Positions 1 through 12,164 of a stretch of 64,000 bases of DNA are shown here, in pieces. Each line of letters starts with the position of its first letter. Position 1 is the stretch's first letter. Made by a program: the position numbers and the translations under genes. Source of the DNA: Companilactobacillus allii (GTDB lineage: Bacteria > Bacillota > Bacilli > Lactobacillales > Lactobacillaceae); contig NZ_CP019323.1 in assembly GCF_001971585.1 (NCBI RefSeq), positions 2,408,053 to 2,472,052 of the forward strand. Direction: 5' to 3'. The notes under the pieces are model-generated. The model saw nothing but the letters and a program-made list of their open reading frames with translations. It was not told the origin of the DNA and did not search any database.

Positions 1-1221
1 TCTCCAATCATAAATCAAAATATCTTCGGAAGAAATATCTTCGTTTAATATTATTTTCCCGCCAATATTTATTGTATATAATCTTGTTAATAAATTTATA
101 ATAGTTGTTTTACCACTTCCTGAAGGTCCAACTATTGCTATTTTTTTATTTCTCTCAAATTTAATATTTACATTTTTTAATATTAAATCATTTTCATATG
201 AAAATGATACATTCTCAAATCTGATACTATTAACTAAATAATTGGAGGGTAATTTCATATTGAAAGGTATATCATTCTCAGTGGACATTTGGATAATCTC
301 ACTAACTTTACTTAAAGATCCTTTACATTCTTTAAAGTTAGTATAAAAAGAAGATACTGTATTTATAGGTTGAATAATTTGTACTAAATACATAACAATC
401 GTTACCAAACTAGACATTGACAATGTTCCATTATTAACTCTTAGGCCACCATATAAAATAATTGATAATATTACACCAAATGAAATTACCGATTGAAGCG
501 GTGCAACAACTGAATTAATTAAATCTCCACGAAGTGAAATTTTATACATATTATTTATATAACCATTTATATTTTTTACAACAATTGATTCTGCATTATT
601 TAATTTAACTGTTCTAATATTTCTTAAGAATTCTGTTACAACACCTGACAACTTACTTAATTCTGATTGAAGTATTATTATCAGTTTTTCATTTATATTT
701 GCTACCGGAATAGTTAAAAGAGCGTATATTGGAAAACTAATGCAAATAACAAAGGTTAGTTTCCAATCCGTATATACTAGTATACTGAGTGCCCCAAATA
801 ATGTAATTATGCCCGATAAATTTTGTGGGATTATTATAGTAATAAATTCTTTTATTATTGAAACATCATTTATAACTCTACTAGATAATTGCCCACTAAT
901 TGAATTATCGAAATACGATGTCGGTAAATATAATAAATGTGTATTCACTTTTTCACGAATTTCTTTTATTGTTTTATCCCCTTCTCGACTAATTATGTAT
1001 CCACCAATAGAGGTTAGAATGGTTGTTAATAATAGTAATATGATAATCTTTAATATATATATCGAATTATTGGTTCCAGAAATCAATATTTCTTTGAGAC
1101 TAATTGCTTTTCCAACAAGAATGGGTACATAAAGATTTAATGAGCTACCTATCATGGTTAATATCAACCCAATAAGGAACTTAAAATTAATATTAAAAAC
1201 TCTTATCTCATTTTTATTCAT
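1..1221 (-). CDS. ABC exporter, fused permease-ATPase (partial, runs off the left edge)
   Basis: The reading frame is open for 407 codons from ATG at 1221 (GGGAG upstream) to the window edge, so the 3' end is missing. The first ~300 residues are hydrophobic with several membrane segments, as in type-1 ABC exporter domains. They are followed by an ATPase start with Walker A GPSGSGKTT near positions 102-129. The Q-loop, signature and Walker B lie outside. There is no N-terminal C39 peptidase domain, because the protein starts directly with a membrane segment, so it would not cleave a double-glycine leader itself. It lies 68 nt downstream of a 42-residue Cys-ended peptide gene on the same strand and probably exports that peptide or gives immunity to it (inference). 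A general lipid or drug exporter is the alternative. Confidence 0.85.
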   Translation of the reverse strand, partial: MNKNEIRVFNINFKFLIGLILTMIGSSLNLYVPILVGKAISLKEILISGTNNSIYILKIIILLLLTTILTSIGGYIISREGDKTIKEIREKVNTHLLYLPTSYFDNSISGQLSSRVINDVSIIKEFITIIIPQNLSGIITLFGALSILVYTDWKLTFVICISFPIYALLTIPVANINEKLIIILQSELSKLSGVVTEFLRNIRTVKLNNAESIVVKNINGYINNMYKISLRGDLINSVVAPLQSVISFGVILSIILYGGLRVNNGTLSMSSLVTIVMYLVQIIQPINTVSSFYTNFKECKGSLSKVSEIIQMSTENDIPFNMKLPSNYLVNSIRFENVSFSYENDLILKNVNIKFERNKKIAIVGPSGSGKTTIINLLTRLYTINIGGKIILNEDISSEDILIYDWR

Positions 1222-1235
1222 AGATATCTCCCACA

Positions 1236-1277
1236 AATAGACAGACAGATGTTGAAATCAGCATCTGTCTGTCTATT
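1236..1277 (-). promoter_or_regulatory. 16-bp perfect inverted repeat between peptide gene and exporter gene
   Basis: Arms AATAGACAGACAGATG (1236-1251) and its exact complement (1262-1277) enclose a 10-nt loop. On the minus-strand transcript there is no U-run after the stem, so it is more likely a partial terminator, processing or mRNA-stabilising hairpin than a full terminator. Hairpins between a small precursor gene and its downstream transport or modification genes are known from bacteriocin operons, where they give an excess of precursor mRNA. That role here is inferred. Confidence 0.75.
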
Positions 1278-1289
1278 GCCTATTAAGAT

Positions 1290-1418
1290 TTAACAACCAA
1301 AACTATAAAAACTACGGCCGGTACACATAAAACTTATATTGCTTCTAGATGCTTTTTTAGCAGCAATTGTAAGTGGTTGTTGTGTATTTTGCAAACTAAC
1401 TATTGGATTAGTATTCAT
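1290..1418 (-). CDS. Candidate RiPP/bacteriocin-like precursor peptide, 42 aa
   Basis: A short ORF starts at ATG 1418 with an excellent AGGAGG eight bases upstream and ends at TAA 1290-1292. The product begins MNTNPIVSLQNTQQPL, then has a basic stretch (AAKKASRS), and ends MCTGRSFYSFGC with cysteines at 32 and 42. The layout of a polar N-terminal leader-like part, a Ser/Thr/Cys-rich C-terminal part and a terminal Cys resembles ribosomally made, post-translationally modified peptides (lanthipeptide, thioether or disulfide types), but I do not recognise a defined family. There is no double-glycine site. The ABC exporter gene follows on the same strand behind a strong hairpin. No modification enzyme is visible in the window; it would have to lie left of position 1. 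A small unmodified disulfide bacteriocin or a signalling peptide is possible. Confidence 0.6.
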   Translation of the reverse strand: MNTNPIVSLQNTQQPLTIAAKKASRSNISFMCTGRSFYSFGC

Positions 1419-1825
1419 ACCCTTTTCCTCCTAAAAAAATATTTTTAGTACGCATATAAATTACCATGCATAACCTACTTTTTGTTGTAAATACCTTGAA
1501 CTATATATATTTCCATCTTTCTAAAACCATCAGAAATATTAATACTACTTTTATTAAAAATTGAATATAAGAGATTGAAACTTTAGTCTGAGCACTTCAG
1601 ATGGCAGTATCAGCACAAGAATTATCAAGATGCAATGAGGGAACTTAGAATAACTCCAAGTATGTCTCGAAAAGGCAATTGTCATGGTAACACACCTATG
1701 GAAAGTTTCTTTAACCTGTTAAATCTAGAATATTTAAATCGTATGAAGATTAATAATTTAGAGGAATTGAAATAAATTGTTGCTAAATACATTACTTGGT
1801 ATAATACCAAACGAATTTCAATGAA

Positions 1826-2385
1826 ATCGAGTAGGAGGTAATTTTGATTACCGACCTCTCACACCACCGTACGTAAGGACCCGTATACAGCGGTTCATTA
1901 ATTTAAGCATTGTGAATAGACTGGAATTTCTTAGACATATTTATTAGTTCAAGAGATTCCAGCTTTTTATTCGTTAGAGTATATGACAATGTCCTGCTGT
2001 GAGCCGTTCGCCAGTAACCCTTATGGGTATTGGCGAACTGTCGAACTTGATTTATTGTCATGCCAAGTTTGGTTAGTCCCTTGATTTTGGTTTTGTTTTT
2101 CTTCCATGGTTTCCAAATATATTGTCTGATTCTGGAGCGAAGCCATTCATCAAGTAATTTGATAAATGTTTTCAGTTTTTCAATTCCATAATAGTTTAAC
2201 CATCCAATCATCTTCTGCTTAATTTTCTTGAAGATTTTCTTGAGTGATTGTTTAACTTATCCTTAGCCTGTCGACTAGGACTTCCTTCAGATTCCACCTC
2301 ACAATAAACACCTTACCTTCGGCTCGTGGTTCCGACTACTACGATCCACAGTGGACTTTCACCATCTAGTTAGCGGTCCCCACAC
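1826..2385 (-). mobile_element. Group II intron, internally deleted, inserted antisense in the IS3 remnant
   Basis: On the minus strand the element starts GTGTGGGGACCGCTAAC at 2385, a typical group II 5' end followed by domain-I-like sequence. It ends with a domain V-like hairpin (about 1865-1896, GAACCGC...GTACGGTG), a domain VI stem (GGTCGGTAATC...) and CCTCCTACTCGAT at 1826. Only about 560 nt remain, against 2 kb or more for intact introns. Most of domain I and the N-terminal three quarters of the intron protein are deleted, with the junction near 2255-2270. Both intron ends look preserved, so the exon boundaries can be read exactly. Confidence 0.8.
1903..2211 (-). pseudogene. ltrA: C-terminal fragment of group II intron reverse transcriptase/maturase
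   Basis: About 102 codons encode MIGWLNYYGIEKLK, then LDEWLRSRIRQYIWKPWKK, and end in a lysine-rich tail. This is the conserved maturase (GIIM, domain X) end of LtrA-like proteins. The matching frame continues about 15 codons upstream (KQSLKKIFKKIKQK) before in-frame stops in the structural intron RNA sequence. The RT fingers and palm with the YADD site are absent, so no activity is expected. It stops about 7 nt before domain V, as usual for an ORF in domain IV. Confidence 0.8.
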
Positions 2386-2499
2386 TAAAAATGGCTTGAC
2401 CCCGGTAGAATACCGCGAACAAGCCATTGCATAAAACCAAAATATTATTTTGTCTAATTTTTTGTTGCACTTCATTGATCTATAGGATGACGCAACTTT

Positions 2500-2749
2500 T
2501 CAATATTTTTCATTAACGAAATCCGGTCTAGTCTCAATGCACAATATAGAAGGTTCCTATCTTCTCGTGTTCATATTTTATTCTGTGGAATTTATCAAAT
2601 AATTTGTTTAGATAAAGGTCCATCAAACCATGATAAATCCAGTTATAGATAGATTTTATACAGAAGTTAAAAATATGAGCTATCTGTTCGGAAGACCACG
2701 TTAGTTTCAGATGGTTTTTAATCATTTTTGTATTATCAGTTGATAGCAC
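2500..2749 (-). pseudogene. IS30-family transposase fragment
   Basis: From GTG at 2749 the frame encodes NHLKLTWSSEQIAHIFNF, then KSIYNWIYHGLMD and HEKIGTFYIVH. This matches the internal 'LKWSPEQIA...KTIYNWIYQG...RGTFNIGRSI' region of IS30 transposases. After a frameshift the match continues as IETRPDFVNE to about 2510 and then breaks off next to the IS3 right end. The HTH N-terminus and the DDE catalytic core are missing. It is a scrap from successive insertions and deletions. Confidence 0.75.
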
Positions 2750-2886
2750 TACAGTGATGATGTGTTAAAAATAAATATAATTATAACAAATATCTTCTAT
2801 CATATTTGCTTTAGTCGCTATCATTGTAAAACATTTACCATAGGTGCCTTTTATATTAGGTGTTCTGATTAATTTTACAATGCTGA

Positions 2887-3648
2887 TTAAAATACCAGTT
2901 TATTTTTTAGTTCAATTTTTAATTTTTGCCTAGATAAAGGTGAAAAATGCCTAATAAATCCCTCTTTAAATAAGATTTCATTTTTACTGAAATCTGCAAC
3001 TTTTATTGCTTTAGGATTTGCTAAACACGATTTATTTATTCTTAATAAATATGGATATTGTTTACTTATTTCCTTAAGCTTTCCGTAAAATTCAAATTTA
3101 TTAGTTTCAGTGTATATATTCACCTTATGAGATGTTACAGATGTTTCTACTAAAATAATTTCAGCCTTTTCAATATTATAAATTTTATTATTTATTGAGA
3201 ATGTAAAAATATTACTTTGATTATTAATTTTTCTAGCTTCATCTATTCTTTTACAAGATATAGATAGAATATCTTGTATTTCTTCTCTAAAGGTAACATA
3301 TGGTTGGTCTTTTATAATATATCCAATGGCCTCAATCCTTCTTTCGAAAGCCAGTTGAATTAGTTCATCATACATCGTTACAAAAATAATTTTGGATAGT
3401 ACATCGCTGTTTCTAATTTTATCAGCCAAATCCATGATATTAACTGAATACTTCAAATCAGCATCTAAGAAATATATTCCACCATGAATGTTATGGTTAC
3501 ACACGTATTCCAGAATTTCGGTAGGAGTTTTTACCTTAAGTATATTGTCTGAAAATTCATCGTGAAATTGTATGTAATCTTTGATTATATTACTCAATCC
3601 ACATGTTTGATTAAATTTATCCTCACAAATAACTATAGAATAGCTCAT
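2887..3648 (-). CDS. LytTR-family response regulator (AgrA/ComE/PlnD type), orphan
   Basis: The start is set at ATG 3648, because GGAGG lies 7 nt upstream; an upstream in-frame ATG at 3669 has no such site. The N-terminal receiver domain (about residues 1-125) has the acidic pair ED (9-10), a probable phospho-acceptor Asp62 in YFLDADL, and a Lys in YIIKD. The C-terminal LytTR domain (about 150-250) has the usual FTFSINNKIYNI start and RINKSCLANPKAI. This type controls bacteriocin and quorum-sensing loci together with a histidine kinase and a peptide pheromone. No partner kinase or pheromone gene is visible between it and the peptide/exporter genes. IS and intron remnants fill that space, so it may be a survivor of a disrupted locus (inference). 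Confidence 0.85.
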   Translation of the reverse strand: MSYSIVICEDKFNQTCGLSNIIKDYIQFHDEFSDNILKVKTPTEILEYVCNHNIHGGIYFLDADLKYSVNIMDLADKIRNSDVLSKIIFVTMYDELIQLAFERRIEAIGYIIKDQPYVTFREEIQDILSISCKRIDEARKINNQSNIFTFSINNKIYNIEKAEIILVETSVTSHKVNIYTETNKFEFYGKLKEISKQYPYLLRINKSCLANPKAIKVADFSKNEILFKEGFIRHFSPLSRQKLKIELKNKLVF

Positions 3649-3878
3649 TTTTAACCTCCTGAATTTCATAAGTGTTTTTTAAGTATGAACGAAATACTCC
3701 ACCAAATTATTTATACTGATATGTTTAAAACTAGATAAAAAATGTAAATAATATCATTTCAGAAATTATCAATATTATATTTTAAGTATGTCATAATTTT
3801 TCCTTTTTGGAGCAAAGTATCCTGAACCATATGTAAATATATCCTATAACCCAATTCTAAATAATTTTCTACTTCGAC
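3649..3878. other. AT-rich intergenic region upstream of the LytTR regulator
   Basis: There is no ORF with a ribosome binding site here. The sequence TTTTAAGTATG occurs twice (about 3675 and 3780), which might be regulator half-sites, but no clear LytTR direct repeat with canonical spacing is visible. It should hold the promoter of the response regulator gene. Confidence 0.4.
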
Positions 3879-3916
3879 AAAAAAACCTTAGTTAGAATTT
3901 CACTTCCAAACTAAGG
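3879..3916 (-). terminator. Intrinsic terminator of the gnt operon
   Basis: Read on the minus strand, CCTTAGTT ... AACTAAGG forms an 8-bp stem directly followed by seven T residues. It lies about 80 nt after the gntP stop codon. Confidence 0.8.
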
Positions 3917-3993
3917 ATGAATATAAAATTTAAAATCAAAAAACAATACTTTTAATTACACTTAAAACTGATTATTTTTTTCAAGCTCATTTA

Positions 3994-5346
3994 TCAAACA
4001 AACAAACTAAGTAACAATACACACAACAATCCAACAATAGAAATCAGAGTTTCTAGGACTGTCCATGTATAAAGTGTTTCTTTAATCGTTAAATCAAAAT
4101 ATTCTCTAAACATCCAAAACCCAGCATCATTAACGTGAGATGCTGCAAGGGATCCAGCACCAATTGCTAACACCATTAATGCCGGATTGACTCCTGCTGA
4201 TTGCATCAACGGCAATACTAATCCAGCAGCGGTTAAAGATGCTACTGTGGCAGATCCTAGTGCAATACGTAATACTACAGCAATTAACCAACCAAGTATT
4301 AATGGTGAAATACTAGCATTTCCAAATAATTTCATAACGGCATCCCCAACACCACCATCAATCAATACTTGCTTGAAAGCTCCACCACCACCGATTACTA
4401 GTAATAACATAGCGATGGATTTGATGGCTTCTTCTAGACTCTTCATAATCTTAGGTGTAGCAAATCTTCTTGCCCATCCCATGGTATAAAGTGCCACTAA
4501 TAAGGAAATAGTCATTGCGATTGCTGGTGTTCCAATGAAGGCAATTATCGAATCTAATGTGGTAGGATTCTTAGGCAAACTGCCCCCGTTAAAGCTCAGT
4601 TGATAAATTGTGGTAATTGCCATTAATATAACTGGGAATAATGACGTTAAGACACTGATACCAAAGCTTGGTGTATCTTCTAGCTTGAATTTCTTTTGTG
4701 GACCAAGTGCTGAAAGATTACCCTTTCGCTCAAAGGCATCAGGAACAAATCTTTGAGCAAACTTAGTGAACAGCGGGCCAGCAACAATAACTGCTGGAAT
4801 GGCCACGATGATTCCGTATACCAAAACATGACCTGAGTTAGCTCCTAAAACTGTACTAATAGCAGTTGGGGCTGGGTGTGGTGGTAAAAATCCATGAGTA
4901 ACTGATAAAGCTGCTCCCATTGGAATTCCTAAATAAAGAATCGAAACCCCTGCTTCTGTGGCAATGGCGAATACGATTGGTACTAATAACACCATCCCGA
5001 CTTCAAAGAATAGCGCGATTCCGATAATAAATGATGCTAACACAATCGCCAATTGCAATCGCTTCTTACCAAACTTTTCAATCAAAGTGTGAGCAATTCG
5101 ATACGCTCCACCAGCATCGGCAACAAGTCTTCCTAACATTGCTCCAAAACCAAAGACAATTGATAGTTCACCTAGTTGTCCACCGATACCTTCTTGAACA
5201 CTCGTCGCAATTTTGTCCAGTGGAATTCCTAATCCAATACCGACTGCAATTGAAGTGATGATCAATGAAACAAATGTATTCATTTTTAATTTAATAATCA
5301 AAAATAGTAGTAGTGCAATCCCTAAAATCAAAACTAAAAAAGCCAT
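3994..5346 (-). CDS. gntP: Gluconate:H+ symporter, GntP family
   Basis: This 450-aa protein has about 12-14 hydrophobic segments over its whole length, the usual size for GntP permeases. Family hallmarks are the early GLGIPLDKI segment, FGFGAMLGRLVADAGGAYRI, HGFLPPHPAP and ASHVNDAGFW near the C-terminus. The HGFLPPHPAP motif is characteristic of GntP/Dsd/Idn transporters. AGGAG lies 8 nt before ATG 5346. It is the last gene of the operon, 32 nt after gntK, and would import gluconate for GntK and Gnd. Confidence 0.92.
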   Translation of the reverse strand: MAFLVLILGIALLLFLIIKLKMNTFVSLIITSIAVGIGLGIPLDKIATSVQEGIGGQLGELSIVFGFGAMLGRLVADAGGAYRIAHTLIEKFGKKRLQLAIVLASFIIGIALFFEVGMVLLVPIVFAIATEAGVSILYLGIPMGAALSVTHGFLPPHPAPTAISTVLGANSGHVLVYGIIVAIPAVIVAGPLFTKFAQRFVPDAFERKGNLSALGPQKKFKLEDTPSFGISVLTSLFPVILMAITTIYQLSFNGGSLPKNPTTLDSIIAFIGTPAIAMTISLLVALYTMGWARRFATPKIMKSLEEAIKSIAMLLLVIGGGGAFKQVLIDGGVGDAVMKLFGNASISPLILGWLIAVVLRIALGSATVASLTAAGLVLPLMQSAGVNPALMVLAIGAGSLAASHVNDAGFWMFREYFDLTIKETLYTWTVLETLISIVGLLCVLLLSLFV

Positions 5347-5378
5347 TTTAATATTCTCCTCATAGGTTGTCTATAAAG

Positions 5379-6914
5379 CTATTTATTGTGATTATGTTTC
5401 TTTTGAAACTCAGCGATACTCTTGTATTCTGGTTCTAAAACACTTGAGATACGAATCCAAATCGGTAGTAGTTCTCGATAAACTTCAAAGTTTTCTTCAT
5501 TTGGGTGATGTACATCAGTTACACCGACCATATCCTTTACAGCTGACAAATCATCTATATAACCTAGAGAATACATCCCAAGAACAGCTGCTCCTAAACA
5601 TGAACTTTCAAAACTCTCTGGGATAGTAACGTCTTGCTCAAAAATATCAGCCAACATTTGACGCCATAGTGAAGATCTAGCAAAACCACCAGTAGCTTGA
5701 ATGCTCTTAGGTTTACCGGCCACTCCTTCAATAGTGAGCATGACTACATATAAGTTATAAACAATTCCTTCAAGCGCTGCACGAACCATATGTGCTCTGG
5801 TGTGTTGTCTAGTTAAGCCAAAGAACGATCCACGAGCATATGCATTCCAGATTGGTGCACGTTCTCCGCCAAGATATGGATGGAACAATAATCCATCTGA
5901 ACCAGCTGGAATTTTTTCAGCAATCTGTGTCAAGATATCATAAGTTGAAACTTGCATCTGTTGTGCTGTGATACGTTCTGGTGCGAATAATTGATCACGT
6001 ACCCATCTAAAAACGATTCCTCCATTGTTAACTGGACCACCAACGACCCATTTATCAGTTGTTAGTGCATAACAGAATAACTTACCGTTAGGATCAACAA
6101 CGGGTTTATCAACAACTACGCGAACTGCTCCGCTAGTACCAATAGTCACTGCAACAACACCGGGATCAATAGCATTTACACCAAGGTTTGATAATACTCC
6201 ATCACTTGCTCCAAAAACAAACGGCACATCCTTATCAATCTCAAGGATTTGTCCATAGTTGTCATTGATTCCCTTGATAGAATCCGTTGTATTAACTAGC
6301 TGTGGTAAACGTGTTTCTTCTATATTAAGTAGTTGTAAAACTTGTGGTTCCCACTTTAGATCAAATATATTGAACATACCTGTTGCTGAGGCAATTGAAT
6401 AGTCCATTTTATATTCTCCAAAAAGTCTGAAGAAGACATAAGTTTTTAGATCAATGAACTTCTTAGCCTTATTGAATGTATCGGGATATTCATTCTTTAA
6501 CCAAAGCATTTTTGAAAGTGGTGCCATGGGGTGAATTGGGGTACCAGTTTTGGCGTAGATTTCTGCACCAAGACCATTATTCTTTAATTCTTCACTATAC
6601 TTGGCAGCACGATTATCAGCCCAAGTTATCGCACGAGTTAATGGCTCGTCATTTTCATCCATCAAGATCAAGCTGTGCATAGCAGACGAGAATGAAACTC
6701 CCTTTAATTCACCAGGTTTTACTTTTCTCATGACTTGACCCATTACATCAATAACGGCATTGAAAATATCCTTTGGATCTTCTTCAGCCATATCAGGTGT
6801 TGTTTGAATAAGTTGATAACCCTTATTAGCGTACTCAATAACGTTTCCTTTTGTATCATAAAGTACACACTTAGTACTAGTTGTACCGATATCCGTTCCG
6901 ATTATGTATTCCAT
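5379..6914 (-). CDS. gntK: Gluconokinase, FGGY carbohydrate kinase family
   Basis: At 511 aa it has the FGGY-family size. The N-terminal phosphate-binding motif is GTDIGTTSTKCVLYD, with an Asp in ITWADNRA. The C-terminal ATP domain has VTIGTSGAVRVV, GGERAPIW and the glycine-rich IQATGGFARSSLWRQ motif. It phosphorylates gluconate to 6-phosphogluconate. Its place between a GntP permease and a 6-phosphogluconate dehydrogenase makes gluconate the likely substrate. The start is ATG with GAGGAG upstream, 16 nt after the gnd stop. Confidence 0.92.
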   Translation of the reverse strand: MEYIIGTDIGTTSTKCVLYDTKGNVIEYANKGYQLIQTTPDMAEEDPKDIFNAVIDVMGQVMRKVKPGELKGVSFSSAMHSLILMDENDEPLTRAITWADNRAAKYSEELKNNGLGAEIYAKTGTPIHPMAPLSKMLWLKNEYPDTFNKAKKFIDLKTYVFFRLFGEYKMDYSIASATGMFNIFDLKWEPQVLQLLNIEETRLPQLVNTTDSIKGINDNYGQILEIDKDVPFVFGASDGVLSNLGVNAIDPGVVAVTIGTSGAVRVVVDKPVVDPNGKLFCYALTTDKWVVGGPVNNGGIVFRWVRDQLFAPERITAQQMQVSTYDILTQIAEKIPAGSDGLLFHPYLGGERAPIWNAYARGSFFGLTRQHTRAHMVRAALEGIVYNLYVVMLTIEGVAGKPKSIQATGGFARSSLWRQMLADIFEQDVTIPESFESSCLGAAVLGMYSLGYIDDLSAVKDMVGVTDVHHPNEENFEVYRELLPIWIRISSVLEPEYKSIAEFQKKHNHNK

Positions 6915-6930
6915 TATTATCTCCTCAAAA

Positions 6931-7827
6931 CTATTTCTTATCTACATTATGTCCGCCAAACTCATTACGAAGTGCAGCAACTACTTTTCCACTGAATGTA
7001 TCATCTTCAAGTGAACGATAACGTACCATTAAAGAAGCCGCAATTACTGGCGTTGGAACTTGTAATTTCAAGGCTTCATCAAGTGTCCACTTACCTTCAC
7101 CAGAAGAATGCATAACACCCTTTAGATCACTTAACTTAGGATCTTTAGCAAAGGCTGATTCAGCAAGTTCCATTAGCCAACTTCTAATTACCGACCCATT
7201 AGACCAGACTTTTGCAACAGCTTCATTGTCGTAGTCAAACTGGCCATGAGTCAACACATCGAATCCTTCAGCGATTGATTGCATCATTCCATATTCAATA
7301 CCGTTGTGGATCATCTTCAAATAATGTCCACTACCAGCTTTACCTGTATATAAATATCCATCCTTCATGGCAATACCTTCAAAAATTGGTTCAATGAATT
7401 TGAAGGCGTCTTCGTCATCTCCACCGATCATAAAATTGCCATCATGATTGGCCCCACTCATACCACCGGATGTTCCAACATCAAAGAATTTAATTCCGCT
7501 CTTTTTTAGAATTTCATTATGCTTGAGCGAATCTTCATAGAATGAATTCCCACCGTCTATCACAATGTCATTCTTATTAAGAATACTACTTAGCTCATCA
7601 ATCGTAGTATTAGTTGGCTTACCAGCAGGTAACATTACCCAAATGATCCTTGGGGCTGGCAAACTTAAAACATCTGACAAATCATTCATTACTTCAGCAC
7701 CTAAATTCCGTGCTGAATTTTTTGCGTCTTCATTTAAATCAAAAGCCAAAACATCTTCACCATTATGAATCAAATTCTCTGTAAGATTGATTCCCATCTT
7801 ACCTAACCCAATCATTGCTAATTTCAT
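6931..7827 (-). CDS. gnd: 6-phosphogluconate dehydrogenase, decarboxylating (short YqeC/GntZ type)
   Basis: The start is moved to ATG 7827 (MKLAMIGLGKMG): AGGAG sits 9 nt before it but abuts the upstream ATG at 7836. The product is about 298 aa, the short form rather than the 470-aa form. The N-terminal Rossmann motif is GLGKMG. The substrate motif GTSGGMSGANHDGNFM and catalytic-region SGHYLKMIHNGIEYG are present. It converts 6-phosphogluconate to ribulose-5-phosphate with CO2 and NAD(P)H. It is the first gene of gnd-gntK-gntP and its leader carries the RpiR-type repeats. Confidence 0.92.
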   Translation of the reverse strand: MKLAMIGLGKMGINLTENLIHNGEDVLAFDLNEDAKNSARNLGAEVMNDLSDVLSLPAPRIIWVMLPAGKPTNTTIDELSSILNKNDIVIDGGNSFYEDSLKHNEILKKSGIKFFDVGTSGGMSGANHDGNFMIGGDDEDAFKFIEPIFEGIAMKDGYLYTGKAGSGHYLKMIHNGIEYGMMQSIAEGFDVLTHGQFDYDNEAVAKVWSNGSVIRSWLMELAESAFAKDPKLSDLKGVMHSSGEGKWTLDEALKLQVPTPVIAASLMVRYRSLEDDTFSGKVVAALRNEFGGHNVDKK

Positions 7828-7847
7828 AGTTTGCATCTCCTAAAGCG

Positions 7848-7936
7848 TTTTCATAAACATAGTGTACGAAAAATATTTTCATATTGCAACTATTAAAAAG
7901 AAAAATATTTTCATAAATAATAAACTATGCTATTAT
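7848..7936. promoter_or_regulatory. Divergent gnt/rpiR control region with repeated operator-like palindromes
   Basis: GAAAAATATTTTCATA occurs twice (7868-7883 and 7900-7915), 32 nt or about three helical turns apart. A partial third copy (TTTTCATA) is at 7848-7855. The core GAAAAATATTTTC is near-palindromic. TATTAT at 7931-7936 is a likely -10 for the plus-strand regulator. The repeats are likely binding sites for the adjacent RpiR regulator, controlling both directions. This is inferred from position and repetition. Confidence 0.65.
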
Positions 7937-7959
7937 ACCAGTATTAAGAGGTATAACTG

Positions 7960-8805
7960 ATGACACAAAATATAACAATTCTATTGCAATCATATTATGA
8001 TCATTTAAGTAGTTCAGCAAAAAAAATTGCTGATTATTTATTGAGCAATCCTGATATAGATTCAAGCTTAACTATTAATGATCTAGCGAAACAAACTGGC
8101 TCATCTATTTCCACTATTTCAAGATTTGCTAAAAGTATCGGATTCAATAATTTTCAACAGTTAAAGCTAAGTCTATTAACGAGTACACAAACCTTTGACA
8201 CTCCATTTAAGGAAATCAATGCCAACGATACTAATTTGACTGTAACTAAAAAGATCTTCTCTGCAAACGTTTCTACATTGGATTCAACTCTAAAAATAAT
8301 CACAGAAGATCAATTAGACAAAGCAGTCGACATCATTAATAACAGTCAAGTCATTGCATTATTTGGGCTTGGTGCATCCTCTGTTGTGGCTCAAGATGGG
8401 TATCACAAATTTCTTCGTTCTGATAAGACTCCGTTATTTGCCAGTGACTATCATATGCAGCTAATGATGGCTACAACCTTGAAGCCTAATTCTTGTGCGA
8501 TTTTAATATCCCATAGTGGTGAAAATAAGGATATCTTGGAAATAGCCAAAAACTTGCGTAAAAACGACATAAAAATAATCGGCATCACTAGTTATGGAAA
8601 TTCCTCGCTGAGTAAAATTGTCGACGTATCATTACTATCTGTCTCTGAAGAAACTAATTATCAAAATGAAGCTCTGCACGCAATAATTGCACAAATTTCA
8701 TTAATAGATACATTATTCGTTCTAACCGCTATTAAAGATGGTCAAGAAACAGACGATATTTTTAAAAAAATCAGAAAAACTATTAATCAAACACGTAATA
8801 ATTAA
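7960..8805 (+). CDS. RpiR-family transcriptional regulator of gluconate genes
   Basis: The 281-aa protein has an N-terminal HTH_6 domain (about 1-77; SSAKKIADYLLSNPD, then the recognition region TGSSISTISRFAKSIGF). Its C-terminal SIS sugar-phosphate domain (about 120-255) contains FGLGASSVVAQDGYHKFLR and LISHSGENKDIL. Such proteins sense phosphosugars. Divergence from gnd-gntK-gntP suggests it senses 6-phosphogluconate or a relative (inference). AAGAGG precedes the ATG. The gene overlaps the convergent pentapeptide gene by 4 nt. Confidence 0.9.
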   Translation: MTQNITILLQSYYDHLSSSAKKIADYLLSNPDIDSSLTINDLAKQTGSSISTISRFAKSIGFNNFQQLKLSLLTSTQTFDTPFKEINANDTNLTVTKKIFSANVSTLDSTLKIITEDQLDKAVDIINNSQVIALFGLGASSVVAQDGYHKFLRSDKTPLFASDYHMQLMMATTLKPNSCAILISHSGENKDILEIAKNLRKNDIKIIGITSYGNSSLSKIVDVSLLSVSEETNYQNEALHAIIAQISLIDTLFVLTAIKDGQETDDIFKKIRKTINQTRNN

Positions 8806-9407
8806 TCCACTTTAATTCCAAATATACCAATTAAAATGGCAGCCTGATACTGGTTAACGATCAAACCACGGGCCAATTCAGGACTGATAGTAATATTATC
8901 GAACTCTGAATCTTGTAGTTCAAATCCCTTCAGTTTAGTTTCTCCCAGATCAGCATCAGTCAATTTCGATCCTGGAAACTTGACCGATTTTTTTACTTTC
9001 AAAGCTTGAAAGAATCCACCAGTTAAATCACAATTTGTGAAATCTACCTTCTCAAATCTACTGTCTGAAAAGTTAACATATGGAGCTTTACAGTCAACGA
9101 ATACTGTATTACTGAAATATGAATTATTAAAATCCACTCCTGATAGTTGCATACTCTTAATCTTACTGTTGTACCAGTTACTCATGTTAAAATCACAACC
9201 AGCCAACTGACTGTGATTCCATTCAATATTGGTAAAGCTAATGCGACTGAAGTCAGTTTGCTCAAAATCACAATGATCAAAAACAATATCTGAAAAATTC
9301 ATTGAGTCACTTATGGATTCAAAGTGACAATGTTTATAGTAGAATCCATCCTCGATTTGGTTCATATTCAGCGTCTGATCAGTTATTGTTTCAATTGGTT
9401 CATTCAT
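8802..9407 (-). CDS. Pentapeptide-repeat protein, Qnr-like
   Basis: The start is placed at ATG 9407 (MNEPIETI) with GGAG 9 nt upstream, giving 201 aa. The body consists of A(D/N)LXX-type five-residue repeats, such as VDFNNSYFSNTVF, VNFSDSRFEKVDFTNCDL and KLTDADLGETKLKGFEL, forming a right-handed quadrilateral beta-helix. The last 20 residues (GLIVNQYQAAILIGIFGI) resemble the C-terminal dimerisation helix of Qnr/MfpA-type DNA-gyrase protecting proteins, as does the length of about 200-215 aa. A role in quinolone tolerance or gyrase protection is possible but not shown. It is monocistronic. Confidence 0.8.
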   Translation of the reverse strand: MNEPIETITDQTLNMNQIEDGFYYKHCHFESISDSMNFSDIVFDHCDFEQTDFSRISFTNIEWNHSQLAGCDFNMSNWYNSKIKSMQLSGVDFNNSYFSNTVFVDCKAPYVNFSDSRFEKVDFTNCDLTGGFFQALKVKKSVKFPGSKLTDADLGETKLKGFELQDSEFDNITISPELARGLIVNQYQAAILIGIFGIKVD

Positions 9408-9632
9408 TATTATCCACTCCGTTAATAGATTCATATCAATACTTTATTTATTATATATTAGTTACCCATCAACATTATAATTATAATATATTCAAATGAT
9501 GTTTAAACATCATTTTTTGATAATTATTCTTATGATTTCACTCTTTATCAAATTAAAACATTCAATTCCATCACTATCAGTGTAGATAATGATAAAATTA
9601 CCATGATTAAGCTCGAAGGGGGATTTTTTTTA

Positions 9633-11000
9633 TTGATTGATTTAACAAATGGTAAGCCTTTAAAAGTTATATTTTTATACACTATTCCACTATTAATGGG
9701 GAATTTTTTCCAGCAATTTTACAGTTTCATCGACACCTTGATTGTTGGAAGAACAATCAGTGTTAATGCACTAGCAAGTGTTGGTGCTACTGGTGGATTG
9801 ACAGGATTAGTCATTGGCTTTGCACAGGGGATGACGAGTGGACTCACTATTTTGACTGCCCGAAAACATGGGGCTGGTGATATCCGTGGTGTTACTAAGA
9901 GTTTTGCTTCTGGAATTATAATCTCTTTTTTTATAACTATAGTTTTTACACTCATTGCACTATTAATCGCATACCCACTACTTAAAGCGATGCAAACACC
10001 TGCAGTGTTATTACACGACGCTTTCATTTTCTTGGAAATAATCTTCGCAGGTATTTTCGCCTTTGTGGGTTTTGATTTCTTGGGGAATACGATGCGTGCT
10101 TTGGGTGATTCTCGTGTCCCACTATTTTTCTTAATTGTAAGCACGATTTTGAATATATTACTAGAACTAGTCTTCATCTTATACCTACACATGGGTGTTG
10201 CCGGTGCTGGATTAGCGACAGTTGTCGCACAAGCCATTACAATGATTGTCTTATATTTCTATATAAGAAGAAAAATCCCATATTTGATATTGAGTCGCTC
10301 TGATTTCAAAATTGATATGGACGAAATAAAGGAGCTATTAAAGGTAAGTCTACCAATGGGATTCCAGTCATCAATTATTGCCATTGGCTCAATTATTCTA
10401 CAATTCATGCTCAATACATTAGGCGCAGACGCTGTTGCTGCTTATACGGTTGCTGGTAGAGTTGAACAAATCGCTACCTTGCCTGCTCTTAGTTTTGGTA
10501 TTTCATTAGTCAATTACACCGCTCAAAATCTTGGTGCCAAGAAATACTCTAGAATATTAGACGGAGTTAAAAAGGGCATTATGATGTCTGTCATATCAAG
10601 TATCACTATTGGTGCAATTTTGATACTATTTGGTAAAAACATCTCACATCTATTCATGAATGGAAGTGAGACACACGTTTTGAATTTGATCCAAATATAC
10701 TATTATTTCAACGGATCGATGTACTTCATGTTGTCCATTCTCTTCATTGTTAGATACACCTTACAAGGATTAGGGAACCAAAAAGCTCCCACGATTGCCG
10801 GTATTGCCGAACTTATCATGAGAGTATTTGCAAGTATTGTTATGATTAGATTCTTTGGATTTTACGGAGCTGCTATGGCCAGTCCACTGGCTTGGATTGG
10901 TTCAGTTCTAGTCCTTGTCAGCACGTGGCGAATCGAGTGGAACAAGTTAAGTAAAATGAAAGATGGTAACGTTGAGATTCCTGAAGAAGTTATCGAGTAA
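9633..11000 (+). CDS. MATE-family efflux transporter
   Basis: I prefer the TTG start at 9633 (MIDLTNGKPLKVI), because GAAGGGGG lies about 10 nt upstream. An ATG at 9603 would put that site inside the gene. The product is about 455 aa with 12 membrane segments. Typical MATE features are LLMGNFFQQFYSFIDTLIVGR, the GNTMRALGDSRVP motif and IPMGFQSS-like LPMGFQSSIIAIGS at the start of the second half. It exports cationic drugs or metabolites by Na+ or H+ antiport. The substrate cannot be told from sequence. A long palindromic repeat follows. Confidence 0.9.
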   Translation: MIDLTNGKPLKVIFLYTIPLLMGNFFQQFYSFIDTLIVGRTISVNALASVGATGGLTGLVIGFAQGMTSGLTILTARKHGAGDIRGVTKSFASGIIISFFITIVFTLIALLIAYPLLKAMQTPAVLLHDAFIFLEIIFAGIFAFVGFDFLGNTMRALGDSRVPLFFLIVSTILNILLELVFILYLHMGVAGAGLATVVAQAITMIVLYFYIRRKIPYLILSRSDFKIDMDEIKELLKVSLPMGFQSSIIAIGSIILQFMLNTLGADAVAAYTVAGRVEQIATLPALSFGISLVNYTAQNLGAKKYSRILDGVKKGIMMSVISSITIGAILILFGKNISHLFMNGSETHVLNLIQIYYYFNGSMYFMLSILFIVRYTLQGLGNQKAPTIAGIAELIMRVFASIVMIRFFGFYGAAMASPLAWIGSVLVLVSTWRIEWNKLSKMKDGNVEIPEEVIE

Positions 11001-11004
11001 TTTT

Positions 11005-11129
11005 TGCAGTGAAAACGCGTGCCAAAACACAATTTTCTCAATATAAGTCTAAAAGGCCGATATTTACTTGCGTAAATACCGGTCTTTTAGGCTTATAAAC
11101 GAAAACTGAACGTGTTCTGTCACGCTCTA
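11005..11129. repeat. Long palindromic repeat, copy A
   Basis: The left arm GTGAAAACGCGTGCCAAAAC... and right arm ...GAACGTGTTCTGTCACGCTCT are imperfect inverted copies. They enclose an inner hairpin CCGATATTTACTTGCGTAAATACCGG-like segment (11057-11082). It lies between two convergent genes, and its right end overlaps the TAG stop of the esterase gene. Both arms fold together, so it may act as a bidirectional terminator. It recurs at least six more times in the window. Confidence 0.85.
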
Positions 11130-12164
11130 TAATCTCTTAGCACACTCATAAATAGCATCTTCACTAGCCGCAGCCTTACCCATTAAATTAAGAAATGCAT
11201 GTGACATCCCACCATAACGGACATATGTTGCATCAGCTCCTGCCATACCAACTTTTTCAATGAATGCTTCATTTTGAAGCCGAAGTGGATCAAATTCACC
11301 TGTTAATACCGTCACTTTTTTAAATAGCAGTGGATTGGCATACATAGGCGAAAGTATTGGCGACGTTAATTCTATATCTTGTTCCGGAAGATATAGCTCT
11401 GTCATTTTTTTATCCAGCTGTTTGAAAATTTCATATGAAGCATGCAATACATTACGTTGCTGATCAATAATCGGTATTCGTGAATCGTCCCATAATCCTC
11501 CTTCTAAATTGGATCCATGGACAAGCGTCGGATAAAACAATAATTGACTCTCTATTTCACATATCCCCATGTAATGGGCAATCTGCGTCAACCCTAATGC
11601 CATAGCACCTCCAGCTGAATCCCCTGCCAATGCTATATTGTGCTTATTTTTGGCAACTTCCATTAATACAGCCAAACAATCAAATAATCCACTTGGATAT
11701 GGATACTCTGGTGCTAGGCCATAATCTATAGAATAAATGGTACCTTCAAATTGCGTGGCTAATAACTTGAGAGGATTTAAGGAACACTCCACACTGCCAC
11801 CATAATACGCACCACCATGCATGTACAAAAGAGCTCGGTTATTATTCTTGAATTTCTTATTATAAATCCTAAAATAACGAACTTTGCGTCCCATTTCATA
11901 TGAGTAATGAATATCTACACATATATTTTGAGATTGCATTTCTGGAATTGGCTGTGCTTTGGTTCCTGCACGAAGTATCGTCAAATCATCAGATAATTTT
12001 GTATTATTGAGAATTCCCTTTTGCTCATCCCAAGTGTTAGGCTCATAAGAATGTGCTTCAACTCGGTCTTTAATGACCATTTTTACATCTTCTAATCTAG
12101 GAACATCAACTTGTTCCACTAACTTCAAACGGTTTAATTCAGTCAAATAATTACTCGTAATCAT
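11127..12164 (-). CDS. Alpha/beta hydrolase, HSL (hormone-sensitive lipase) family esterase
   Basis: This 345-aa protein has the oxyanion-hole motif MHGGAYYGG (about 115-123) and the nucleophile elbow GDSAGG (about 180-185). The acid region GEFDPLR and His in MSHAFLNL complete the triad. The HGGXXXG and GDSAGG pair defines the bacterial HSL or esterase family IV. There is no signal peptide, so it is probably cytoplasmic and acts on short-chain esters. AAGGAG lies before ATG 12164. It follows the symporter gene by 16 nt, so the two may form an operon for uptake and de-esterification of an acylated glycoside (inference). Confidence 0.88.
   Translation of the reverse strand: MITSNYLTELNRLKLVEQVDVPRLEDVKMVIKDRVEAHSYEPNTWDEQKGILNNTKLSDDLTILRAGTKAQPIPEMQSQNICVDIHYSYEMGRKVRYFRIYNKKFKNNNRALLYMHGGAYYGGSVECSLNPLKLLATQFEGTIYSIDYGLAPEYPYPSGLFDCLAVLMEVAKNKHNIALAGDSAGGAMALGLTQIAHYMGICEIESQLLFYPTLVHGSNLEGGLWDDSRIPIIDQQRNVLHASYEIFKQLDKKMTELYLPEQDIELTSPILSPMYANPLLFKKVTVLTGEFDPLRLQNEAFIEKVGMAGADATYVRYGGMSHAFLNLMGKAAASEDAIYECAKRL

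Follow-up and report, generated by a model that had tools for sequence, protein, structure and literature searches.

What is the 42-residue, cysteine-terminated peptide encoded beside an ABC exporter on the chromosome of Companilactobacillus allii, and which enzymes, if any, mature it? An earlier note on this DNA had proposed it as a candidate new RiPP or bacteriocin that matches no nameable family, and had placed any maturation enzymes left of the window, that is, of the whole 64,000-nt stretch that was analysed (C1:2408053-2472052). We examined the window together with 20 kb to its left, where a lanthionine synthetase gene was found downstream of the exporter. Because the peptide combines a leader motif and core motifs of class III lanthipeptides with an adjoining class III synthetase (LanKC), we assign it as the precursor (LanA) of a class III lanthipeptide, with a probability of about 0.93. 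Its RiPP class is an established one, and its core is new.

A 42-residue peptide with class III leader and core motifs

The 42-codon open reading frame (ORF), hereafter lanA, and the AGGAGG site ahead of it are present as the earlier note had described them (Table 1). The encoded peptide reads MNTNPIVSLQ...SNISFMCTGRSFYSFGC, and its complete sequence is MNTNPIVSLQNTQQPLTIAAKKASRSNISFMCTGRSFYSFGC. Residues 6-10 form the LELQ-like motif IVSLQ, comparable to the LELQL leader motif that is needed by ThurKC according to the consulted part of PMC10604976. The core harbors two S-x2-S-x2-C motifs, S26-S29-C32 and S36-S39-C42, both within the final 17 residues, and Cys42 is the C-terminal residue. In excerpts of two papers, the core motif of class III is written as S-x2-S-x2-5-C (PMC8960859), and Sx2Sx3C is called characteristic of class III (PMC7268733).

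Upon shuffling of the lanA peptide (200,000 shuffles), two exact S-x2-S-x2-C motifs occurred in a fraction of 0.00014. At least one S-x2-S-x2-5-C occurred in a fraction of 0.115, so a single motif of this kind would carry little weight on its own. Among the 14 ORFs of 25-90 residues in the window that possess a strong ribosome site, lanA is the only one containing S-x2-S-x2-5-C; under a laxer ribosome-site criterion, the motif is found in 5 of 73 window ORFs. The shuffles and the uniqueness among the 14 strong-site ORFs led us to reject lanA as a chance ORF.

Comparison with RiPP precursor models, as the earlier note had proposed, yielded a match to NCBIfam lanthi_III_b (NF038159, E 0.0079), which at 16.2 bits stays below the curated cut-off of 30 bits, and lanA is not placed in that subfamily. 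Sequence search against 200 other Lactobacillaceae genomes gave weak matches in four of them (E 0.026-0.092) and no clear homologue, and a literature text search with three pieces of the peptide returned no paper. The peptide contains no double glycine, in line with the earlier description.

Table 1. Features of the lanA locus and its surroundings; positions refer to the window unless prefixed by C1 (contig) or L006 (fetched locus)
Feature	Position	Strand	Basis or remark
105-aa membrane-like ORF	C1:2404534-2404851 (L006 16482-16799)	minus	directly after the cyclase half
LanKC cyclase half, 346-aa ORF	C1:2404865-2405905	minus	LANC_like
LanKC lyase-kinase half, 526-aa ORF	C1:2405982-2407562	minus	RamC_N and Pkinase
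lanT, ABC exporter without peptidase domain, 575-580 aa	1-1236, continuing to C1:2407546	minus	Pfam
Hairpin between lanA and exporter	1236-1277	minus	16 bp perfect, no T-run
lanA, putative class III lanthipeptide precursor, 42 aa	1290-1418	minus	motifs and neighbouring enzyme
Ribosome-binding site AGGAGG of lanA	1427-1432 (read 1432-1427)	minus	8 nt ahead of the ATG
Mobile-element debris between precursor and regulator	1554-2750		ORFs, Pfam
Transposase fragment, integrase core	1635-1775	plus	20.9 bits, below Pfam's 26.5
Group II intron maturase fragment	1903-2211	minus	within the debris
ORF without Pfam match	2534-2749	minus	within the debris
AgrA-like LytTR response regulator	2887-3669	minus	Pfam, NCBIfam

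A hairpin and a peptidase-less exporter follow the precursor

The perfect 16-bp hairpin reported after the ORF is likewise present. Its two 20-nt arms (1236-1255 and 1258-1277) are 95% complementary, with the outer 16 bp perfectly paired, and on the 3′ side the hairpin extends into the TTG at which the exporter frame may start. The folding z of -5.45 was not equalled by any of 200 shuffles. A reading as terminator was dropped because a T-run is absent; moreover, a terminator scan of 1100-4100 calls none. The hairpin is probably an attenuator or an mRNA stabiliser, which likely either raises the short precursor message above the enzyme message or protects the precursor message. Folding of eight regions (the window, L061, L062, L077, L078, L079, L080 and L190) revealed stable stems of different sequence at the same position in L061, L062, L078, L079, L080 and the Jeotgalibaca plasmid (z -3.05 to -6.99), with one of 200 shuffles folding as well for L078 and for L080. 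The corresponding region of L077 gave z values of 0.22 in one stretch and -2.88 in another, and the loci L059 and L060 have no gap between precursor and exporter to fold.

An Rfam search of window positions 1-12000 gave no match. A sigma-70 scan of 1100-4100 called 15 promoter-like sites, compared to 19.9 in shuffles, and none of them on the minus strand within 1419-1560.

The exporter frame reaches 507 nt past the left window edge. It may start at TTG 1236, giving 580 residues, or at ATG 1221 behind GGGAG, giving 575 residues; the ATG is the likelier start. Pfam places ABC_membrane and ABC_tran above cut-off in it, and no peptidase domain, C39 included, occurs among the matches listed (25 families, E ≤0.1), in agreement with the exporter type that had been proposed. 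A double-glycine bacteriocin was rejected, as the peptide lacks GG and no C39 domain is listed for the exporter. In addition, the exporter shares 39-46% identity with exporters adjoining class III LanKC genes of lactobacilli, Terribacillus and Jeotgalibaca.

A class III lanthionine synthetase lies left of the window

Unrelated housekeeping genes after the exporter would have spoken against the earlier proposal; instead, the exporter is followed on the same strand by the 526-aa ORF, the 346-aa ORF, the 105-aa membrane-like ORF and insertion-element remains. Extension to the left, as suggested beforehand, thus uncovered a maturation enzyme where it had been expected, comprising a RamC_N lyase-kinase part and a LANC_like cyclase part. 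The 526-aa ORF matches Pfam RamC_N with 182 bits and Pkinase with 41.5 bits, and the 346-aa ORF matches LANC_like with 48.8 bits, so that lyase, kinase and LanC-like domains are all present in the class III order, across two ORFs in different frames. With the NCBIfam class III LanKC model NF038151, the two ORFs scored 458.8 and 168.1 bits, respectively, and covered positions 10-473 and then 506-833 of the 833 model positions in succession in the genome search. Neither half alone reaches the 575-bit cut-off; the halves were scored apart in all searches, without read-through, and together they are not one polypeptide. These sub-cut-off scores weaken the claim that the present copy works, not the class of the locus.

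In a search against solved structures, the class III LanKC 8sap ranked first for the 526-aa ORF (E 2e-89). For the 346-aa ORF, 9wj0 ranked first (E 3e-26; its deposited name is 'protein kinase domain-containing protein'), followed by 8sap (E 2e-23). We take 8sap to be ThurKC because a numbering offset of +3 relative to the consulted part of PMC10604976 fits every residue named there. That source describes eight lyase residues of ThurKC as conserved in labionin-forming enzymes. All eight (K79, H81, K108, K122, K131, D166, R177 and R208) were found in the 526-aa ORF, by hand count on its alignment with 8sap, and the eight columns are invariant in a six-sequence alignment.

In the same excerpts of PMC10604976, ThurKC has Ser726, Phe770 and Asp771 at the positions that hold the Cys-Cys-His zinc ligands in other LanC cyclases. 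The 346-aa ORF has Asp, Phe and Ser at these positions; its cyclase therefore lacks a zinc site, in keeping with class III. The Ser replacing Asp771 deserves attention because ThurKC with Ala at 770 or 771 is described there to dehydrate but not to cyclise. Among relatives, the residue at the Asp771 position is Ser in L059 and L060, Asp in L061 and L062, and Glu in L064, and the neighbouring Phe770 position also varies.

Neither Pfam nor NCBIfam has a match for the 105-aa ORF directly after the cyclase half, and at E 0.1 none of the fetched loci contains a relative of it. At a guess, it is perhaps an immunity protein.

Precursor, exporter and synthetase recur together in Bacilli

A scan of public genomes with a single synthetase protein gave 13 pattern matches and no relative among them. 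A scan with an alignment as the query yielded at least 577 synthetase relatives, of which the best 80 were kept. RamC_N is found in 33 of 397 genomes drawn from Lactobacillaceae. Synthetase relatives on plasmids amount to 82 records, including 15 from Lactococcus, 12 from Lactobacillus and 8 from Staphylococcus, and a DNA search of plasmids with the synthetase region gave no match.

On the LanKC strand of 60 of these best 80 loci, we found a precursor-like ORF, defined by a ribosome site, the leader motif and S-x2-S-x2-5-C; this rule was set after seeing examples and has no shuffled control. At least two core motifs occur in 42 of the 80, a Cys shared by two overlapping S-x2-S windows being counted twice. 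The remaining 20 of the 80 have no precursor by the rule. They include loci of bee lactobacilli (L079-L082) with small leader-motif ORFs before the exporter, whose cores lack S-x2-S-x2-C.

Precursor, exporter and LanKC follow one another in this order in L078, L061, L062, L059, L060 and the Jeotgalibaca plasmid, too; with the hairpin behind the precursor, the order recurs in Terribacillus, the Jeotgalibaca plasmid and bee lactobacilli. Similar NP..xLQ leaders are NPVLELQ in Terribacillus halophilus (L078), NPVLDLQ in the Jeotgalibaca dankookensis plasmid NZ_CP019729 (L190), NPALGLQ in L060 and NPVLALQ in a Lactobacillus helsingborgensis plasmid, where the small ORF comes after LanKC and the exporter is interrupted by a transposase gene. 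The leader of L077 is also NPVLDLQ; its precursor, NNPVLDLQ...SIFCK, just upstream of the exporter (2657-4357, minus), is missed by a search restricted to ATG, GTG and TTG, because the frame opens at a CTG codon. Small ORFs with the same leader, most of them with the core motif, thus adjoin the same two genes in relatives; the earlier note had named the opposite outcome as evidence against a peptide locus.

Two further observations concern individual loci. In L077 (G179:C41), a 632-aa protein with a pro-kumamolisin activation domain (733-2631, minus) is encoded between the exporter and the LanKC fragment and is a candidate dedicated leader protease. In Niallia circulans (L098, 10588-11647), seven class III precursor-like ORFs stand in a row after LanKC.

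The cluster lies on an accessory low-GC island

From the 105-aa ORF to the precursor, the G+C content is 28.1%, compared to 34.4% for the window. A strong LanKC match was found in one of 36 genomes of the genus, solely that of C. allii; matches in the other 35 reach at most 74.7 bits and lie over the kinase part, and one of these genomes (G013) additionally matches the lyase part over 43 positions with 18 bits. In the related genome G008, 798 nt separate the flavodoxin-side genes (left; 75% identical DNA; the flank gene is a flavodoxin by Pfam) from the GntP permease gene (right; 82%), and their order and orientation are as in C. allii. In C. allii the same interval measures 8,993 nt and contains the cluster. 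The locus is accordingly an accessory low-GC island, the comparison of the insertion site resting on this one relative. In G008 the gap (L183 2597-3246, G008:C20) is occupied by two small ORFs with Gp49 and helix-turn-helix domains, which resemble a toxin-antitoxin pair; the site therefore seems to take up different accessory genes.

Element debris is found on both sides, left of the cluster beyond the 105-aa ORF, and between precursor and regulator (Table 1), where the ORF without Pfam match resembles an IS30-type fragment. A pentapeptide-repeat protein is encoded further right in the window (8802-9434, minus).

The response regulator, separated from the precursor by the debris, is possibly the regulator of the cluster. 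Its LytTR domain exceeds the Pfam cut-off, its receiver domain stays below (21.4 of 30.2 bits), and it scores 98.4 bits with NCBIfam AgrA, whose cut-off is 400. It shares 25-27% identity with regulators beside the class III clusters in L059 and L060, where a regulator and a GHKL histidine kinase stand beside the class III operon. No histidine kinase adjoins the C. allii regulator, and the L060 kinase has three matches elsewhere in the C. allii genome.

The synthetase is split between two reading frames

In the present assembly the two LanKC frames overlap by 8 nt in a T-rich stretch, and the overlap contains the stop codon TGA of the lyase-kinase frame. The cyclase frame runs through 374 codons without a stop, and by eye no ribosome site was seen before the first ATG of the cyclase ORF. 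By comparison, at least 65 of the best 80 of at least 577 relatives have a single LanKC frame of at least 780 codons, frames running to a contig end being scored as long if they have at least 780 codons. The remaining 15 comprise one frame cut at a contig end, one of 779 codons and 13 loci that lack the motif used for scoring. The split is judged on one assembly, and the searched collection includes one genome per species. A LanKC in two frames means that the strain has recently lost the cyclase step or that the assembly carries a sequencing error.

We see an even chance that the break is a real and recent mutation in a decaying cluster. The strain would then make no mature lanthipeptide, its peptide being phosphorylated or dehydrated at most and left uncyclised, and the locus would be on its way to being lost like the element debris around it. 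The overlap at a T-rich stretch containing the TGA, the lack of a visible ribosome site ahead of the cyclase ATG and the mobile-element debris flanking both sides are consistent with decay, as is a response regulator without adjoining kinase, compared to L059 and L060 where both are present. However, the precursor, its ribosome site, the exporter frame, the eight lyase residues and the 374-codon cyclase frame all look intact, so the break, if real, must be recent; moreover, a mutation and a sequencing error look alike in one assembly.

Somewhat below even odds, we consider an assembly or sequencing error, in which case the true gene would be a normal single LanKC and the cluster would work. 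The position of the break at a short run of T, the single frame in at least 65 of the 80 best relatives and the absence of stops over the cyclase frame argue for such an error, whereas the overall quality of the 2.53-Mb genome, which is in 2 contigs and 99.9% complete, argues against it.

It is improbable that both halves are made and cooperate. They would do so either as two polypeptides, a lyase-kinase and a metal-free cyclase, or by ribosomes changing frame in the T-rich stretch at the TGA. The ratio of dehydrated to cyclised peptide would then be set at translation, and this would be a class III synthetase split or regulated unlike any relative examined here.

Class assignment and proposed maturation

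Altogether, the leader and core motifs and the adjoining LanKC bear out the earlier interpretation as far as a RiPP precursor with its own exporter and an enzyme to the left is concerned. The claimed absence of a known family does not hold: leader, core motifs and enzyme make the peptide a class III precursor, and lanthi_III_b finds it, if weakly. Several observations point the other way. The precursor reaches just 16.2 of 30 bits and lacks a clear homologue at the sequence level; LanKC is spread over two ORFs and has Ser at the Asp771 position; 20 of the best 80 of at least 577 loci have no precursor by the rule, and the bee-lactobacillus cores lack S-x2-S-x2-C; and the cluster shows neither a protease nor, in its precursor, the M16B cleavage motif.

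That the peptide is instead secreted unmodified, for example as a two-Cys bacteriocin or an Agr-type signal that happens to stand beside these genes, we regard as very unlikely. The nearby AgrA-like regulator and the C-terminal Cys, which invites comparison with signal peptides, are in its favor, but the leader and the paired S-x2-S-x2-C are typical of LanKC substrates and the same order recurs beside LanKC elsewhere. In addition, a search of the complete genome at E 0.001 gave no match to the AgrB family, a weak negative because the control set matches in one of 14 genomes and below cut-off. A class IV lanthipeptide (LanL) shares the lyase-kinase-cyclase layout and its model NF038150 does match the 526-aa and 346-aa ORFs (245.9 and 29.3 bits), but this reading is the least credible and was rejected, since both ORFs score far higher with the class III model and the cyclase part has no zinc ligands.

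For the class III precursor, maturation may be outlined by analogy with the family. The leader helix with IVSLQ would bind the kinase domain of LanKC, which would phosphorylate the core serines; the lyase would strip the phosphates to leave dehydroalanines, to which the metal-free cyclase domain would add Cys32 and Cys42. The predicted product has two rings, labionin or lanthionine, over S26-S29-C32 and S36-S39-C42, and would leave the cell through the peptidase-less ABC exporter. Calculated masses cover leader trimming at residues 19 to 26 with four or five waters lost; a core of residues 24-42, for instance, would have an [M+H]+ of 2077.88 after losing four waters.

The leader would be removed by an unclustered protease, no protease being found among the ORFs of the cluster with Pfam and NCBIfam. 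One candidate is a pair of neighbouring M16 genes (like YmfF/YmfH) elsewhere in the genome, at about C1:1412231-1414765, the second member of which has HxxEH. In the available part of PMC8960859, M16 pairs, among them YmfF/YmfH from B. subtilis, are shown to process the leaders of some class III peptides and failed on a precursor from another group. Given that failure, and since the M16B-pair cleavage motif Q-A-(A/V)-(D/E) of the same excerpts is absent from the lanA peptide, the pair is only a candidate.

Comparison with known systems

As far as the excerpts of PMC10604976 and PMC8960859 go, ThurKC/ThurA of Bacillus thuringiensis and the paenithopeptins and bacinapeptins, respectively, share with C. 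allii a LanKC with lyase, kinase and metal-free cyclase, a leader of the LELQ kind and the S-x2-S-x2-5-C core motif. The paenithopeptin and bacinapeptin clusters (ptt, bcn) also have a transporter gene, and in Bacillota class III systems of both sources the leader protease is often outside the cluster, as in C. allii. However, the C. allii core differs from those of ThurA, paenithopeptins and bacinapeptins in its two short S-x2-S-x2-C motifs, the second of which ends in the C-terminal Cys; unlike ThurKC, its LanKC lies in two frames and has Ser instead of Asp771. Compared to these systems, as described there, Pfam and NCBIfam identified no methyltransferase among the C. allii cluster ORFs.

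Bee lactobacilli (L. bombicola and others; Lanthipeptide III in the consulted part of PMC10673953) belong to the same bacterial family and also have a hairpin before the exporter. Their LanKC N-part is 40-41% and their exporter 41-44% identical to those of C. allii. They differ in the core, which lacks S-x2-S-x2-C despite the retained leader motif. In Terribacillus halophilus (L078) and the Jeotgalibaca dankookensis plasmid (L190), the gene order, an NPVL(E/D)LQ leader and the pre-exporter hairpin are shared with C. allii, with 46% identity in the exporter and 45% and 41.5%, respectively, in the LanKC N-part. These two differ in having poly-Ser cores with one S-x2-S-x2-C and a LanKC in one frame. 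Labyrinthopeptins resemble lanA in that a single core contains two labionin motifs and ends in Cys, but are actinobacterial and have the spacing S-x2-S-x3-C.

Class III clusters of Bacillota and lactobacilli have been published before (PMC7268733, PMC8960859 and PMC10673953, each consulted in excerpts), and PMC8960859 names a Lactobacillus precursor group. A class III peptide was detected by mass in a P. lentus strain according to the available part of PMC11594732. Any biological activity of the C. allii product is conjectural; in excerpts of PMC10673953 on bumble bee lactobacilli, class III and IV are often without antibacterial activity. In the consulted portions of PMC7268733, PMC8960859, PMC10673953, PMC11594732, PMC10134562 and PMC13067958, there is no account of a class III product that had been isolated from a lactobacillus; making a two-motif core of Lactobacillaceae origin would therefore be worthwhile.

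The split synthetase is a warning that this strain may not make the product. The class III assignment defines the formerly unnamed peptide as a lanthipeptide precursor, predicts two rings in its product and places the C. allii cluster in a group in Bacilli that has a common leader, a common exporter and, in most of the regions that were folded, a hairpin ahead of the exporter, combined with very different cores.
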